Source: an uncultured Alphaproteobacteria bacterium (GTDB lineage Bacteria > Pseudomonadota > Alphaproteobacteria > Rs-D84). From it: a stretch of 35,399 bases of DNA. The position numbers and the translations under genes are program-made. Positions 2,880 through 18,579 of the stretch are shown here, one piece after another (position 1 is the stretch's first letter; every line of letters starts with the position of its first letter). The stretch spans positions 444,132 to 479,530 of the forward strand of contig CATOOF010000001.1 in NCBI GenBank assembly GCA_951801825.1. Direction: 5' to 3'. Under the pieces are notes generated by a model, which had not been told where the DNA came from, did no database searches, and saw only the letters and a list, made by a program, of their open reading frames with translations.

Positions 2880-3872
2880 TTATTCCCGTTTTTCCTTGCC
2901 CTGTATCCAGCCCTCAATCTTGCGTATTATCTGGGCAATTTTTTCCAGCTGGTCGTCGTTAAGTGTGTTCATCGGGGTATTTAACGTAACACCTGTGGCG
3001 CGTTCCACACTGCGCTGATATGAGGATGTGTTGTTGCCATCGGTTGGCGGGGCCCATGCGCTGATTGCACCCCCCAGTGTCTTGCTCTGGTATCGCGAGG
3101 TTTTCAACAGTTTTACTATCGCGTTCATCCCGGTCTGTTCATCGGGGAATGCGGCAAATCCGCCCGCCCGGCCAATTCCGCCGACACTGTCGCTAAAGCG
3201 TCCGGGACGAATATTACCCGGATTATTGTTACGCCATGCTCGCGAGCCGCTGCTGCGTCTTATTTTTGATTCATCGCGATACGTATAAATTACGTCGCGG
3301 CCTGATTCGTGCGCCCGCACAGGACCATTATCACTACCGGTCGGGGCCGGGTTATCTGTCTGGGGTTCTTCGGTTATTGTCTGTGTATCAACATTGTCCA
3401 CATTTTCTTCTTCTGGTGTATTTTGTGTGCCGGCTATTGCGCCACTGTCGTAAATATCTAACTCTTCGTATAAATCGTTTTCATTTCGCCCGGATAGACG
3501 GGTATTACGGGAATCCAGCATTGACTGGATGTCCGCGACAGACATTTCAATTGTTTTGCAGCCGCGCTGGAATAAATCGTCGCCAAATATAACATTTATT
3601 ACCGGTCCTGTGACCGATGCGATTCCTAATACAAGAATCAGGTTGCGCATATTTGTAAAAATATCGTTTTTTGCGCCACGAATCATGGAAATTGCCCATC
3701 CGAACAGTAACAGTCCCGTTACGCAAACCAATGCAATCCATGCATATTCTGCAAAGTTTGCAAATGCTCGTAAAACGCATGAAGGGTCTTCAAATGAAAT
3801 GACCTGACCGCTGGTTCGGATGTTTTGAAATCCGGCGTTTTCCATTAACCGAAGAATTTGATTTAAATCCAT
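2880..3872 (-). CDS. Two-helix membrane protein with C-terminal muramidase-like domain
   Basis: A 330-residue protein in two parts. Residues about 42-105 hold two membrane helices (WIALVCVTGLLLFGWAISMI and NLILVLGIASVTGPVINVIF), a hairpin reminiscent in layout of T4SS pilin-like proteins. A low-complexity acidic linker follows. The C-terminal 120 residues begin SGSRAWRNNNPGNI and include AAFPDEQTG, AISAWAPP and IRKIEGW. This domain is shared with the protein at 5515 and resembles phage/conjugation-associated peptidoglycan-active domains (P5-like). The hydrolase role is inference. It starts three bases after the stop of the gene at 3876, so the two are translationally linked. Confidence 0.6.
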   Translation of the reverse strand: MDLNQILRLMENAGFQNIRTSGQVISFEDPSCVLRAFANFAEYAWIALVCVTGLLLFGWAISMIRGAKNDIFTNMRNLILVLGIASVTGPVINVIFGDDLFQRGCKTIEMSVADIQSMLDSRNTRLSGRNENDLYEELDIYDSGAIAGTQNTPEEENVDNVDTQTITEEPQTDNPAPTGSDNGPVRAHESGRDVIYTYRDESKIRRSSGSRAWRNNNPGNIRPGRFSDSVGGIGRAGGFAAFPDEQTGMNAIVKLLKTSRYQSKTLGGAISAWAPPTDGNNTSSYQRSVERATGVTLNTPMNTLNDDQLEKIAQIIRKIEGWIQGKEKRE

Positions 3873-5488: not shown

Positions 5489-5516
5489 AAAAATCGCCCG
5501 TTTGGGCGATTTTTTT
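5487..5516. terminator. Bidirectional terminator after zapA
   Basis: Perfect 13-bp stem AAAAAAATCGCCC / GGGCGATTTTTTT with loop GTTT, shared by zapA and the gene at 5515. Confidence 0.9.
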
Positions 5517-6216
5517 ATATCTGGCGCTGCAACGAGTCCGTTATCATCTTGTTTCTTCTTGCGGCCAGCATGCTTTTATGGGATTCGCGGTGTTCGATTT
5601 CACCGGTGCGCCATCCCTCAATAACGCAGATTGCGCTAACTACTTTTTCCATTTCTTCGGAATTCAAATCCCCCAGTCTTTTGTTCAGCGGCAATCCCGT
5701 CATTTTACGCAGGCGCTGTTTATATCTGGCCACGTCATTTTCATAGGGCGGTGCATATTTTATAATCGCGCGCTCTATGCTCAGGTTTTTATAACCATCG
5801 CCACGCAACAAGTCTGCCAGCGCCGCGCGACCGGTCTGTTCGCCTGGGAATACTGCGAATTTGCCGCCTTTGCCTAAGGCGCCTTTTTCGCGTGTAAATT
5901 TGCTGTAAACCAGACAGCCCGGATTGTTATTACGCCATGCGCGCGAACCGCCGCTGCGGCAAATTGTATCGCCCGTGTTCATGATGTACAGAATGTCGCT
6001 CTTTTTATCAATTGTTTCCACAACAATCGGTTCTATTTCGTCCCATTGTGTTTCTGCGGCAACAGAATCGATAGGCTGCTTTACATTGTCGTTGACATTT
6101 ATATTATATTCTTTTTTATCTGTAAGCGGTGACGCGACAGAATTCGATATATAAGAACTACCGAAAAGTGTCGCAGTGCCGGCCAACAGATATTTTACTA
6201 CAGTTTTTTTATTCAT
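5515..6216 (-). CDS. Exported protein with P5-like muramidase domain
   Basis: A 233-residue protein from the ATG at 6216, which is chosen because GGGG lies just upstream and a signal sequence follows (MNKKTVVKYLLAGTATLF...SVAS). After a 70-residue acidic linker, the C-terminal domain SGGSRAWRNNNPG, FAVFPGEQTG, AIIKYAPPYEND, CVIEGW is closely related to the domain at the end of the protein at 2880. By analogy with phage- and conjugation-associated domains it may act on peptidoglycan; no catalytic residue is proven. It is preceded by a structured leader RNA (6217-6411) shared with the gene at 6442, with which it forms an operon. Confidence 0.65.
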   Translation of the reverse strand: MNKKTVVKYLLAGTATLFGSSYISNSVASPLTDKKEYNINVNDNVKQPIDSVAAETQWDEIEPIVVETIDKKSDILYIMNTGDTICRSGGSRAWRNNNPGCLVYSKFTREKGALGKGGKFAVFPGEQTGRAALADLLRGDGYKNLSIERAIIKYAPPYENDVARYKQRLRKMTGLPLNKRLGDLNSEEMEKVVSAICVIEGWRTGEIEHRESHKSMLAARRNKMITDSLQRQI

Positions 6217-6411
6217 TGTTTTCCCCTTTGCAATCAAACAGGGCGTGCCAAATACCGCGCACGGTCCTGATTTTGGTGTTATACGTTTTTTTGATTGGTT
6301 CGACGTGATAGAATGAATGTCACATCGTACATTCGAACAGCACATACATTTGTGCCGCCCCGACTTACCTTTCGGCAGCCCGCCCCGTTTCCAGGGAACC
6401 AAGGTTTTGTG
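6217..6411 (-). promoter_or_regulatory. Leader RNA with alternative helices, copy E
   Basis: Between the genes at 6442 and 5515. On the minus strand a1 TTGGTTC (6402-6396) can pair with the first half of a2 GAACCAATCAAA (6301-6290), whose second half can pair with a3 TTTGATTG (6238-6231), immediately before the ribosome-binding site. Blocks shared with copy F are GGGCGGGCTG (6385-6376), GTAAGTCGGGG (6368-6358) and GAATGTACG (6334-6326). A helix GTTCGA/TCGAAC encloses the middle. This fits control of translation; the signal sensed is unknown. Confidence 0.65.
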
Positions 6412-6441
6412 GTGTTCTGTCATACAGACACCGGCCAGAGG

Positions 6442-7548
6442 TTATCCCCTGGCAATCTGTAGCTGGTGCTCCATCGCGATTAGCTTTGGCGCCGGCTCAG
6501 ACATAATTTGTTTAACATCGTCGCCAAAGTATTTTGCATGCACCAGGCGCAGTAATTCTGTGCGCGGCAACGCCTGCAGACTTTTGGCGGATATTTCCGT
6601 CCCGTTGGTAATGTATTCAATCATCTTTTCACGGGGCATTGATTCCAGCCGCTTTAACTCGCGTTCGTATTCAATCTGCAGAATTTGTTCAATGTCTGCA
6701 CTGAATACGTTCGACATGTCCCATGCCTCGAATACATCGCCAATGCGTTCGCGATTATGTGCCGTGAACATATATTTGCCGGTTTTTCCCGGAACAAATT
6801 CGCCGGCCTGGACCTGTCCCTGGCCCAGGAACATAATCGCGTGGAATTTGGTTTTTGCCCCACGAAAGCGCGGAACAATCCATATACTGCCCGGGCTGAC
6901 GTGTTCGGCTGAAAAATTACGACGTGCGAATTCCGCGGTTGCCGCCGCACGTGCGTTCGGTGCGGATTTGTCGGTAATGCCGTGTTTCGCCAAATATTTT
7001 TTCAGCTCTGCGTTATATGCGGAATCAGATGCAAATACCCGGCCTTCTTTTATTACGCCATCGTATTCTGGTCGTGCATATTTTCTACGCATCTGGTCCT
7101 TGAATGCGACACATGCGCTTTTCCCGTTTTTTGGAATAACGGTCAGTGTGTCGCCATTTTCATTCAATGCACGCATCAGTTGGGTGTACTGGCCGTACAT
7201 GCAGTGCATTCCGACCGGCGCCCCGGGCAGTTCGCGGCGTACCGCGGCGCGATATCCGCGTGTTCCGAGTGCGGGCTTTAGACGTTTTTGTGCGGCCAGC
7301 ATATTTTCGATATACATATCGCACGTATTTTCGGCCCGCGCCAACAGGCGTGATTTCATAATGTCATATTGCTTTTTGTAATCAACAATCATTGCCGCCT
7401 TTGCAACCAGATTGCCGGGCACTTGCAACTCTGTCTTGGGCTTTTGCCCGACTGGCAGGTGCGATTCTTGTGCCATGGTGGAGTTTTTGCTGAATACAAC
7501 CGCGCTTCCTATTAGCAGATAAGGAAACACTTTTTTATAAATATTCAT
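6442..7548 (-). CDS. Exported protein, possible papain-like (CHAP/NlpC-type) fold
   Basis: A 368-residue protein from the ATG at 7548 (AGAGGG upstream), with a signal peptide ending near STMAQ. A cysteine in ENTCDMYIENML followed much later by PGSIWIVPRF and FHAIMFLGQGQ recalls the Cys...His layout of CHAP/NlpC amidases, but the match is weak and the function is inferred. The C-terminal third is helical and charged. It is the first gene behind promoter 7757-7785 and leader RNA 7549-7749. The gene at 5515 follows with its own copy of the leader. Confidence 0.55.
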   Translation of the reverse strand: MNIYKKVFPYLLIGSAVVFSKNSTMAQESHLPVGQKPKTELQVPGNLVAKAAMIVDYKKQYDIMKSRLLARAENTCDMYIENMLAAQKRLKPALGTRGYRAAVRRELPGAPVGMHCMYGQYTQLMRALNENGDTLTVIPKNGKSACVAFKDQMRRKYARPEYDGVIKEGRVFASDSAYNAELKKYLAKHGITDKSAPNARAAATAEFARRNFSAEHVSPGSIWIVPRFRGAKTKFHAIMFLGQGQVQAGEFVPGKTGKYMFTAHNRERIGDVFEAWDMSNVFSADIEQILQIEYERELKRLESMPREKMIEYITNGTEISAKSLQALPRTELLRLVHAKYFGDDVKQIMSEPAPKLIAMEHQLQIARG

Positions 7549-7749
7549 TTTATTCCCTCTTTGCAATCAAACGAATGATATGCGTTTGTGCATTTCATTC
7601 TGTTTTATGTGTTTTTGATTGGTTCGTTGCGATAAAATAATAAACTCGCCACGTACATTCAGATATTCGATTAACCCGAACACCCCGACTTACGGTGCCT
7701 GTATAAAAGCGCACACACAGCCCGCCCTAAAAAGGGAACCAAGGTTTTG
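7549..7749 (-). promoter_or_regulatory. Leader RNA with alternative helices, copy F
   Basis: The 5' leader of the gene at 6442, same plan as copy E: a1 TTGGTTC (7742-7736), a2 GAACCAATCAAA (7625-7614), a3 TTTGATTG (7571-7564), conserved blocks GGGCGGGCTG (7727-7718), GTAAGTCGGGG (7793-7683 region, precisely 7693-7683) and GAATGTACG (7660-7652). A hairpin GAATGA/TCATTC lies between a2 and a3. The a3 helix ends four bases before AGAGGG. The intergenic region of 350 bases holds this leader, its promoter and the terminator at 7863. Confidence 0.65.
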
Positions 7750-7756
7750 TATATAC

Positions 7757-7785
7757 AATATAGACAAAAAAATTTGGTATTTCAA
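7757..7785 (-). promoter_or_regulatory. Promoter of leader F and its operon
   Basis: On the minus strand TTGAAA (7785-7780), a 17-base spacer and TATATT (7762-7757). The predicted start is near 7750, just before the ACAAAACC opening of the leader. Confidence 0.75.
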
Positions 7786-9167: not shown

Positions 9168-10127
9168 ATGGCTAATGTTGTGCTGGAATCTTTGTTGCGT
9201 CCCTTGGAAGAGTTTTATAAACCTTCATTTGTTGAAGAAATTGCAATAAACCGCGCGGGCGAGGTTTGGATGCGTCTGCATGGTTCGCGCGTGCCCTGGG
9301 TTGCATACAAGGCTGAAAATTTAAGCAAGCAGTATTTGGTAGATTTGATTCATACGGTCGCAAATATTTACGAGCGGCCATTTAATCCCACGCACGGCGT
9401 GCCTGTTGTATATGCCACATTGCCGGGCAACCACCGTTTTTCGGCGATTGCCGGCCCAAATGTTCAATATGATGAAGATGATGTGACGGGCGGTGTTGCA
9501 ATGAATATACGCGGTGGCAATGCCCCCGAAACCAGTTTCGAGAACTATCACCTAAAGCGTGGCGAAGAGTTGCTTAAGGTAAAGCCGCGTGAAACCGTTC
9601 GCCCCGATGACCCGTACGAGCGTTTAATGACCGCCATAAACGACGGCAGTCCGATTTTAATCAGTGGTGCGACCGCCACCGGTAAGACGACGTTTTTGAA
9701 CCACATGCTGAAACTGATTGACCAAAACAGTCGTGTTATAACGGTCGAAGATGCACGCGAAATCCGGGTGCCCCAGGCTAATCGTGTACATTTTGTTTTG
9801 TCGCGTACCGAACAGAATAATGATTTTAATTATGCGCGCCTGTTGGATTTGGTTGTTCGTATGACGCCTGATGTCATCATTGGCGGGGAAATATCAACGG
9901 ATAATGCATCTGTTTTGTGGGAAATGTTGGGGACAGGGCACGACCACTTTTATACGACCATTCACGCCGAAAGCGCGGATGCCGCATATGCCGCGTTTGC
10001 CGACCGTATTTTGCATACCCAGCCTGCATACAACCGTACAGATTTGATTGCGGAAATGAAAAAGAAAATCCGTGTTGTACAATTGTCTCGTGATGGTGCA
10101 CTGCGTGCCGTGACAGAGGTTGTATAA
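9168..10127 (+). CDS. virB11: VirB11-type secretion ATPase
   Basis: A hexameric ATPase that powers type IV secretion from the cytoplasmic side. The 319 residues hold an N-terminal domain with the NRAGEVWM motif, Walker A GATATGKT (167-174), an Asp box (ITVEDAREI), Walker B DVIIGGEI (235-242) and a His box GTGHDHFYTTIHA. Length and order match VirB11 rather than PilT or GspE. No other vir gene is adjacent, so the machine would be encoded in several loci, as in Rickettsiales. There is no obvious Shine-Dalgarno sequence, and an AT-rich -10-like element lies immediately before the ATG. Confidence 0.93.
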   Translation: MANVVLESLLRPLEEFYKPSFVEEIAINRAGEVWMRLHGSRVPWVAYKAENLSKQYLVDLIHTVANIYERPFNPTHGVPVVYATLPGNHRFSAIAGPNVQYDEDDVTGGVAMNIRGGNAPETSFENYHLKRGEELLKVKPRETVRPDDPYERLMTAINDGSPILISGATATGKTTFLNHMLKLIDQNSRVITVEDAREIRVPQANRVHFVLSRTEQNNDFNYARLLDLVVRMTPDVIIGGEISTDNASVLWEMLGTGHDHFYTTIHAESADAAYAAFADRILHTQPAYNRTDLIAEMKKKIRVVQLSRDGALRAVTEVV

Positions 10128-10488: not shown

Positions 10489-10515
10489 AAAATCCCGCCA
10501 ATTGGCGGGATTTTA
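10489..10515. terminator. Bidirectional intrinsic terminator
   Basis: Perfect stem AAAATCCCGCC / GGCGGGATTTT with loop AATT, serving the convergent genes at 10235 and 10513. Confidence 0.85.
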
Positions 10516-11199
10516 GTTTGTATAAAAACATTTGCCGCCGGTTATTGTCCAGCTGCCCGTGGTATCAGAACCCTTGCTGTCTTCTGGCAGGTAACAGCTG
10601 GTTATCGCCGTGGCACCGGCGCTGGCGGTTGTGCCGTATACGCCGCCCGATGCCGGACAGCGTGTGCAGCCCGACGTTCCGTTCGTGCTGTTTCCATAAT
10701 ATCCCTTGGCGCAACGATAGCTAGTCGATTCTTTACATGTAGGGGTTTCTGAAGTGCATTCACAATGTCTGAGGACCCTTTTTTCATATCCGGTACCCGC
10801 GGCGGTATAATCTGGGTCATTCGAGCAGTTGGAGCAACTGCAGTCGCAAAATGGAAACCCTATTTGCATTACAAAGCCAGTCTGCTTGCATGGATTTATT
10901 CTATAGCTATTAGTTGTGCTGTATCCGCTGCGGCATTTTGTGCAGTATCTAACACCATAGATTTTATTGTTTTGGTCCTTAAAACATTTAAGTTCCCCAT
11001 AGTTCTCGTCCATGGTTTGTTGCTCACAATTTGGGTCGCTAATAGTAGTATAGTCTGTCAAGCCGCTCATACCTGTAGATGGGCAGGTGGTTTCATCGCA
11101 GCTTGGGTTGGCTGTACCGCCGCCGCCCCATGATACGGCCAACGCTGGCGGTGTAATGATGTAAAGTGCCATCGGCAAAATTACTTTTATTTTGTTCAT
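10513..11199 (-). CDS. Secreted cysteine-rich protein
   Basis: A 228-residue protein from the ATG at 11199 (AGGAGA eight bases upstream), with signal sequence MNKIKVILPMALYIITPPAL and a likely cut after AVS or ALA. The mature part has about 26 cysteines in short CxxC-like modules (CTKCRSGYSTT, CDCSCSNC, CAKGYYGN, CTRCPASGGVYGTT, ITSCYLP), so it should be heavily disulfide-bonded outside the cytoplasm. Similar CxxGYY repeats appear in the protein at 20451. Expression is probably controlled by the attenuator-like RNA at 11223-11438. No function was recognised. Confidence 0.7.
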   Translation of the reverse strand: MNKIKVILPMALYIITPPALAVSWGGGGTANPSCDETTCPSTGMSGLTDYTTISDPNCEQQTMDENYGELKCFKDQNNKIYGVRYCTKCRSGYSTTNSYRINPCKQTGFVMQIGFPFCDCSCSNCSNDPDYTAAGTGYEKRVLRHCECTSETPTCKESTSYRCAKGYYGNSTNGTSGCTRCPASGGVYGTTASAGATAITSCYLPEDSKGSDTTGSWTITGGKCFYTN

Positions 11200-11222
11200 T
11201 TGTTCAATCTCCTGTTTTTTTT

Positions 11223-11438
11223 CAAACGAAAAAACCACCAAAAAAGGTGGTCAGGAGGTTGACTACAATCCTAAGAATTGTGTGCTTATTCAATATATTC
11301 GCAACCCTCCTGACCCCGCGGGCTCAGGAGTTTGTTTTACGTCGCAATATTAAAATGGGCGCATTATGCGCGCCTTAGGTTTGTATTCCGACGCTTAGGC
11401 AGAGGTAGTCACACCTCATTACCGGAACGCCCGGTAAC
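11223..11438 (-). ncRNA. Attenuator-like leader RNA, copy D
   Basis: The 5' leader of the Cys-rich gene at 10513. It starts with hairpin TTACCGG/CCGGTAA. The arms read on the minus strand are a1 CTCCTGA (11324-11330), a2 GGTCAGGAGG (11306-11315), core GAATATATTGAATAAGC (11284-11300), a3 CCTCCTGACC (11249-11258) and terminator ACCACC/GGTGGT plus U6 (11229-11251). a3 shares its last three bases with the terminator arm, so a2:a3 pairing and termination exclude each other. Relative to the other copies the arms changed together (GTTGGAG to GTCAGGAG and its complement), which supports the pairing. Confidence 0.75.
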
Positions 11439-11444
11439 ATTAGA

Positions 11445-11473
11445 ATTATATACTGCCGGTCGTTTAAACACAA
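11445..11473 (-). promoter_or_regulatory. Promoter of leader RNA copy D
   Basis: On the minus strand TTGTGT (11473-11468), a 17-base spacer and TATAAT (11450-11445). The predicted start at about 11438 is just before the 5' hairpin of the leader. Confidence 0.75.
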
Positions 11474-17553: not shown

Positions 17554-18579
17554 TTATTGCAGATATTTGTTGTAAAAACGGATAAACGCGTTGTCCCCGG
17601 TCTGTCTGGCGTCGGAACGAAACTTTCGCCGCAGGTTATTACAGCGCGCCCACTTCATCCAACCACTGAACGCGGCCAGCTGGCTGCGGCTATGGGCGGA
17701 AATTTCTCTGTTCTGTATCAGCGTGCGCATATTTTGTTTCATTTTTTTTACGCCGGCCTTGGTTAAAATGACATAATCTTTAAAGTGACGGTATCCGATA
17801 AAGCTTATCCCGGCATCTGTTGGCTTTATAAAAGATTTAGAGAATGTCAGTTGCAGCTCTTTCCCCAGATACTCTTGCAATGTATTGCGCCATTTCCGCA
17901 GTGTTTCAATATCATTGGCAAACAGACAGAAATCATCACAGTATCGTATATAGTCGCGCACATGCAATTTATGCTTTATAAACATGTCTAAATCGTTCAT
18001 ATACAGATTACCCATCCATTGACTGGTTAAATTTCCAATTGGCATACCGCATTCCGTATAGGCCGAGCAGACAATATCCTCTAACACTTTCAGTATTCGC
18101 CGGTCCTGTATTTTCCGTCGCAGTATTTTTATCATGATTTCATGACGTATGCTGGGATAGAATTTGCGTATATCGCATTGCAACACGTATTTGTTGCGCC
18201 GCAGCATTTGCATACACCGATGCGATGCCTCATGCAGGCCGCGCCCCGGTATGCATGCATAAGAATCGCTGATAAACAGTTTCTGCCAAATAGGCCCCAG
18301 TATATTTATAAGCGCATGATGTACGATATGATCCGGATACAGTGGTAACATGAATACTTGTCGTTTCTTGGGCTCGTAAACGAAAAATATGCGGTATTGT
18401 CCTGTTTTATATGTGCCGTTTTTTAAGGATTTGCGCAGTCGCGCCAATTTTTGTTCACGGTGTCGCATAAAGATTTTTGCAGATATTTTGGATTTTTTTC
18501 CGCGCAGGGCATGGTCTGCGGCAATTTCGAAATTTTCCGCGGATATAAAATCGTTCCACAAATGTTTGTGTGTTTTCAT
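17554..18579 (-). CDS. Diversity-generating retroelement reverse transcriptase
   Basis: A 341-residue reverse transcriptase with only the RT palm and fingers plus a short C-terminal thumb. It has no maturase or endonuclease domain, which argues against a group II intron. Motifs in order: VFMLPLYPDHIVHHAL with SDSYACIPGRG (RT2), CDIRKFYPSI with catalytic D136, GMPIGNLTSQ (179-188, the SQ signature of DGR enzymes), YCDD with D215 and D216, LTFSKSF, and ISFIGYRHF. The start overlaps the stop of the accessory gene (ATGA), implying coupling. Together with TR and VR it completes a DGR, where it would copy TR RNA into adenine-mutated cDNA. Confidence 0.95.
   Translation of the reverse strand: MKTHKHLWNDFISAENFEIAADHALRGKKSKISAKIFMRHREQKLARLRKSLKNGTYKTGQYRIFFVYEPKKRQVFMLPLYPDHIVHHALINILGPIWQKLFISDSYACIPGRGLHEASHRCMQMLRRNKYVLQCDIRKFYPSIRHEIMIKILRRKIQDRRILKVLEDIVCSAYTECGMPIGNLTSQWMGNLYMNDLDMFIKHKLHVRDYIRYCDDFCLFANDIETLRKWRNTLQEYLGKELQLTFSKSFIKPTDAGISFIGYRHFKDYVILTKAGVKKMKQNMRTLIQNREISAHSRSQLAAFSGWMKWARCNNLRRKFRSDARQTGDNAFIRFYNKYLQ

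Follow-up and report, generated by a model that had tools for sequence, protein, structure and literature searches.

The window analyzed here, a stretch of 35,399 nucleotides from an uncultured alphaproteobacterium with a genome of 897 kb, carries on its minus strand two adjacent genes, each of which is preceded by a long leader RNA. Gene A (6442–7548) codes for a protein of 368 amino acids with an NlpC/P60-like cysteine peptidase domain, in which C116, H236 and N265 are invariant within the family. Gene B (5515–6216) codes for a protein of 233 amino acids with a lysozyme-like muramidase domain of the Enc34 endolysin type. Leader F, which reaches to the start codon of gene A, occupies positions 7549–7750 and leader E, the in-operon copy in front of gene B, positions 6217–6410 (covariance-model matches with E values of 4e-35 and 3e-35, respectively). 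A covariance-model search found these two leaders as the only copies in this genome.

Both leaders are built in the same way. Leader F starts with strand a1 (UUGGUU, 7737–7742), which forms the 5′ strand of helix P1 and follows a CCUU that can face the ribosome-binding site. Then come the hairpins P2 (CCCUUUUUAGGG, 7725–7736), P3 (7687–7722) and P4 (7662–7684), the invariant box GAAUGUA (7654–7660), hairpin P5 (7625–7653), the pivot strand a2 (AACCAAUCAAA, 7614–7624), strand a3 (UUUGAUUG, 7564–7571) and the ribosome-binding site (AAAGAGGG, 7555–7562), all on the minus strand. In leader E, on the same strand, the corresponding elements are a1 (UUGGUU, 6397–6402), P2 (6383–6396), P3 (6362–6380), P4 (6336–6359), the box GAAUGUA (6328–6334), P5 (6301–6327), a2 (AACCAAUCAAA, 6290–6300), a3 (UUUGAUUG, 6231–6238) and the ribosome-binding site AAAGGGG (6223–6229). 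The boxes GGGCGGGCTG, GTAAGTCGGGG and GAATGTACG and the arms a1 CCTTGGTTCCC, a2 AACCAATCAAA and a3 GTTTGATTGCAAAG, by which the first-pass annotation had linked the two leaders, are indeed present in both.

Upstream of leader F there is a promoter-like site (TTGAAA-17 nt-TATATT, 7757–7785, minus strand), and the transcript is therefore expected to start near position 7750, at a1. A single match of this kind is within the range of shuffled sequences; the same arrangement recurs across most copies of the leader, and a strict scan found a promoter-like site at the 5′ end of the RNA in 59 of 90 copies. Leader E begins about 40 nt past the stop codon of gene A. The claim that it lies inside an operon and has no terminator holds, since the hairpin that separates gene A from leader E (6411–6432, minus strand) is not followed by a U-run and the interval contains no promoter-like site. 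Most second copies of tandem loci are likewise free of a promoter or terminator in between, the sole locus with a terminator-like hairpin between the gene and the second leader being L083. Other tandem loci also have a hairpin at this place, of varying sequence and with no U-run, which may serve in processing or insulation.

Further copies of the leader, for which the annotation had suggested a search, were found far beyond the window. Among 142 family genomes, 34 contain the pattern of the two arms a2 and a3, CCAATCAAA-N30..60-TTTGATTGCAAA, and none contains its reversed control. All 37 distinct copies that were retrieved by these two arms alone also carry the other boxes, namely TTGGTTCCC, GGGCGGGCTG, AAGTCGG (once AAGCCGG) and GAATGTA. 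We therefore conclude that what leaders E and F share is not due to chance. With the covariance model R1 the leader was detected in 76 of the 156 genomes of Candidatus Enterousia, which has reduced genomes and is placed in the order Rs-D84 (PMC12306168), and outside this genus in only two more genera, both of its family. A core-only model built from 75 varied copies picked up no additional genus within the order and found no copy in 385 genomes sampled across the class Alphaproteobacteria. One class-wide match (L119 in G175, E value 2.3e-4) lacks the boxes and disappeared under the core model, and is regarded as a chance match. When a 26-base pattern was compared with 84,980 species genomes, 72 stretches were returned, every one from uncultured bacteria; by their record titles nearly all belong to an Alphaproteobacteria bacterium or proteobacterium, several of them to Candidatus Enterousia. 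The same pattern had no match in the viral contigs searched and gene A is found in no phage record, so that a phage origin of the leader or of gene A was rejected. In the genome G077 the hairpins P4 and P5 of the two tandem leaders (L072, 3540–3749 and 4895–5105) are near-identical, as if they had undergone concerted evolution.

Rfam 15 gave nothing on the leaders at either gathering or permissive thresholds. At the gathering score the window and 17 loci with a leader yielded only tRNAs, and no T-box, SAM, cobalamin or other such element. Leaders E and F are thus copies of a single structured RNA, about 200 nt long and uncatalogued, and we have practically no doubt that this leader is a real conserved cis-RNA.

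The structure of the leader was examined in alignments of the copies. In a nested structure of 37 sequences 96.2% of the cells are paired, and two-sided changes occur at 19 of 39 pairs. The number of cells with two-sided changes is 149 as compared to 42 in shuffled alignments, none of 500 shuffles reaching 149. When the partners are shifted by one to three columns the covariation score drops from 0.333 to below 0.1. With 75 core sequences the score is 0.423 versus 0.207 in shuffled alignments, again with none of 500 as high. In short, a conserved structured 5′ leader with covariation was found (0 of 500 shuffles), as is looked for in a riboswitch. The signal is carried by P3, P4 and P5, which, judged from their covariation, are real helices. 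P1 (UUGGUU/AACCAA) is paired nearly throughout and varies solely by G-U wobbles, P2 is constant except for its last pair, and the boxes between the hairpins are near-invariant, which lets the junction look like a pocket that could bind a ligand or a protein. As to the arms a1, a2 and a3, for which the annotation had asked for covariation, P1 and the common type of P6, the helix between a2 and a3, hardly vary and so have no covariation of their own.

In the 3′ part of the leader the ribosome-binding site lies within or next to an alternative pairing. In the common type a2 (AACCAAUCAAA) stands opposite a3 (UUUGAUUG) and the CUUU at a1 opposite the AAAG of the ribosome-binding site (helix P0). 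That a2 can pair with a1 or with a3 had been noted before, and both pairings are present; in most copies, however, they overlap by only 2–3 nt of a2, and competition between the two helices would accordingly proceed by branch migration at a three-way junction instead of involving all of a2. For the loss of a3 pairing in relatives, which the annotation had named as a refutation, the outcome is mixed. Of 90 copies 54 have the a3 sequence unaltered, and in several divergent ones it is unrecognisable. The helix between a2 and a3 is retained with different bases in L104 and L109 (AAUACAAA/UUUGUAUU). In L112, from another genus, a2 is placed directly on the ribosome-binding site (CAAUCCUU with AAGGAUUG), and in L113, from another genus as well, a comparable helix with one bulge can be formed. 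The first pair of P0 is U-A instead of C-G in L008 and L013 and the second is C-A in nine common-type copies; taken by itself, P0, the 4–5 pairs between a1 and the ribosome-binding site, is not significant when compared to shuffled sequences. The alternative pairing is thus present and remade in relatives, while the individual arms are weak by shuffling and fail a clean test in some copies. We consider P1, P6 and P0 to be supported, not proven. Going by the aligned copies, the constant theme seems to be that a2 serves as a pivot between closure of the sensor and hiding of the ribosome-binding site, with an output helix that appears to have been remade more than once.

Because there is pairing beside the ribosome-binding site and neither leader of the window has a terminator, control would be at the level of translation rather than of RNA stability, which we regard as quite probable. 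The view of the first-pass annotation that this is a structured leader controlling translation has largely stood up: the covariation, the fixed site at the start codon, the absence of a terminator and the natural loss of the leader in some genomes agree with it, although a3 is less universal than had been thought.

By comparison of the copies, the leader is tied to two gene families. Among 91 distinct matches 87 lie directly upstream of the start codon of an A- or B-family gene, 38 before gene A and 49 before gene B. The remaining four are a copy at a contig end, L112 in front of a gene for a 63-amino-acid membrane protein, L113 in front of a gene for another exported protein, and the chance match L119. 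Conversely, the leader is present in all 39 genomes with a strong match to protein A.

Both products are predicted to be exported, as had been proposed. The structure model of protein A is confident (pLDDT 86.4). With Foldseek alone no clear relative was found; a second aligner gave NlpC/P60 proteins, CHAP domains and T6SS amidases as the best fold matches (Z up to 9.0, 123 residues, 3.4 Å), with Z 9.0 for NlpC2; the identity is about 10%. The model is consistent with a papain-like fold carrying Cys and His. No member of the protein A family passes the cut-off of the Pfam family NLPC_P60, with one match among 31 proteins at an E value of 0.032, and we therefore call protein A NlpC/P60-like and do not file it as a member. 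It resembles the NlpC/P60, CHAP and papain-like peptidoglycan peptidases in its fold and in its invariant Cys, His and Asn, and differs from NlpC/P60-type peptidases in additional helices not covered by the match, in the low identity and in the sub-threshold Pfam score. The muramidase-like domain that had been assigned to one of the two proteins was confirmed for the product of gene B, which is closest to the Enc34 endolysin (7q47) by profile (E value 5.7e-8) and by fold (Foldseek E value 7.2e-6; Z 10.1 over 115 residues) and also matches PHROG endolysin and transglycosylase families. The likeness concerns the lysozyme-like catalytic domain; unlike in the Enc34 endolysin this domain, whose activity is predicted, is part of an exported bacterial protein encoded at a conserved chromosomal locus. 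From the fold and the invariant residues of protein A and from the profile and fold of protein B we take both to be predicted peptidoglycan hydrolases.

By BLAST, proteins A and B are alike almost only in the N-terminal export segment, and promoter, leader and export signal therefore look like one movable module. A similar segment of the type K-x-x-x-P-Y-x-L is found right behind the leader at both N-termini (from 7548 and 6216, minus strand) in these otherwise unrelated families. Genomes that have only gene A (G043, G056, G140, G145) or only gene B (G036, G107, G111) retain the same core of the leader, and autoregulation by A or B was therefore rejected. There are also cases of natural loss: in G080 gene B and its promoter are retained and the leader is lost, in G046 the leader has decayed next to a retained gene and promoter, and in G067 and G198 a leaderless B-type gene lies behind a promoter-like sequence.

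We propose that leaders E and F are one cis-acting RNA which probably works as a riboswitch-like translational switch. The sensor would be formed by the first 100–130 nt, in which P1 (UUGGUU with AACCAA) closes the junction of the four hairpins P2–P5. Without the signal a2 would lie on a3 (P6, CAAUCAAA/UUUGAUUG) and a1 on the AAAG (P0), and translation would be low. With the signal at the junction P1 would close to six pairs, P0 would be lost and P6 shortened, and ribosomes could enter, the output being the co-ordinated synthesis of both exported peptidoglycan hydrolases. The signal is probably a diffusible ligand. In rough energies the state in which the ribosome-binding site is hidden lies 4.3 ± 1.9 kcal/mol below the state with P1 closed and the site free in 45 of 46 common-type copies. 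Since the energy model is rough, we regard it as evenly balanced whether the ligand turns translation on.

The direction could also be the opposite one, with the signal stabilizing a compact fold in which P0, P1 and P6 are formed together and hide the ribosome-binding site. In the common type these helices are compatible with one another and can make up a three-way junction that is nearly perfect, and the c-di-AMP riboswitches known so far are OFF switches (PMC9960051). On the other hand the compact fold is 5.7 kcal/mol above the fold with P0 and P6 in all 46 copies, in a model that leaves ligand and tertiary contacts aside, and in L112 and L113 a2 is unable to close P1 fully while covering the ribosome-binding site. 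We judge such an OFF switch to be rather unlikely. Somewhat less likely still is that the junction binds not a small molecule but a protein, a general RNA-binding regulator that represses or activates translation. The conserved junction is large, and the leader is found at one locus per genome and with few gene types, as autoregulatory leaders are; for the same reason a metabolite riboswitch would be unusual here. Nevertheless no candidate protein emerged, and the product of A or B is not the general signal as the core is retained in the A-only and B-only genomes. It is improbable that the leader acts on the processing, stability or localisation of the message or in trans, and is no switch at all. 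Such a role would fit the joint travelling of the leader and the export-signal segment in two unrelated families and the hairpin ahead of the in-operon copies, yet the copies are cis-located, with a constant spacing to the start codon, and the alternative pairing at or beside the ribosome-binding site persists in remade forms. An RNA thermometer or simple occlusion hairpin that melts with temperature or salt, with a core that only stabilises the message, has in its favour that the helix between a2 and a3 is AU-rich and adjoins the ribosome-binding site, and is nonetheless very improbable as it does not need a core of four hairpins with near-invariant junctions and as many of the hosts given in the record titles are birds and mammals, whose body temperature is constant.

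For the proposed ligand-responsive switch we looked at cyclic dinucleotides as the signal. Proteins with a GGDEF domain are absent from 115 genomes, which makes c-di-GMP unlikely as the ligand. Enterousia has a gene for a CdaA-type cyclase, flanked by an AsmA-like gene on one side and dnaN on the other. Counting genomes of known state only, the cyclase is present in 51 of 55 leader-bearing and in 18 of 34 leaderless genomes (Fisher p 3e-5), and four leader-bearing genomes have no cyclase match. A test corrected for kinship had six usable pairs; the informative ones are in the expected direction, and the result is not significant. In G080, which has lost the leader, the AsmA-like gene directly adjoins dnaN and no cyclase was found there or in the 529 kb read. 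A clean loss of cdaA is visible when this genome (L297, 11440–11660) is compared with G000 (L262, 6551–7309). On this circumstantial support it is possible, but a long shot, that an alphaproteobacterial genus has in this leader a second class of c-di-AMP riboswitches with an unrelated structure.

Translational riboswitches have a conserved junction core, a closing stem P1 that competes with a strand pairing at the ribosome-binding site, and no terminator. The E/F leader is like them in its core and in the lack of a terminator and, in the proposed model, would also be like them in the competition with P1; unlike translational riboswitches generally, it occurs at one locus per genome and in one bacterial family, and its output helix has apparently been remade several times. 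The closest parallel as to the target genes is the ydaO/kimA RNA (RF00379), likewise a leader ahead of exported peptidoglycan hydrolases with an NlpC/P60 gene among them. In Actinobacteria, ydaO c-di-AMP riboswitches precede wall genes such as nlpC of C. glutamicum and rpfA of Streptomyces, and the one at nlpC of C. glutamicum has no terminator and probably acts on translation (PMC9960051). The leaders described here differ from RF00379 in their boxes, in the four-hairpin junction closed by UUGGUU/AACCAA and in their alphaproteobacterial hosts, and the RF00379 model found no match on them at gathering or permissive thresholds; with no Rfam match the leader does not belong to the ydaO RNAs. It forms a clear-cut family of structured RNAs, with sharp alignments, that is absent from Rfam 15, and the output would be a pair of predicted peptidoglycan hydrolases, in bacteria whose genomes measure about 0.9 Mb. 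Should it sense a metabolite, it would constitute a new riboswitch class, and if this metabolite were c-di-AMP, wall enzymes would have come under RNA control by this messenger on two occasions, with targets of one kind here and in Actinobacteria. The leader sequences permit an in vitro binding test without culture of the host.

Some other features of the neighbourhood were recorded. A gene at 2880–3872 of the window (minus strand) codes for a membrane-anchored protein of 330 amino acids with a muramidase-like domain of the gene B type; it has no leader, and many genomes retain it close to the leader locus. A gene for a type II/IV secretion ATPase lies nearby (9168–10127, plus strand). A different long structured leader at 11220–11460 (minus strand) has a terminator-like hairpin (ACCACC..GGTGG with a T-run); it precedes the gene of a Cys-rich exported protein (10513–11199) and could be an attenuator. 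Finally, a reverse transcriptase gene (Pfam RVT_1, E value 1e-16) is located at 17554–18579 on the minus strand.
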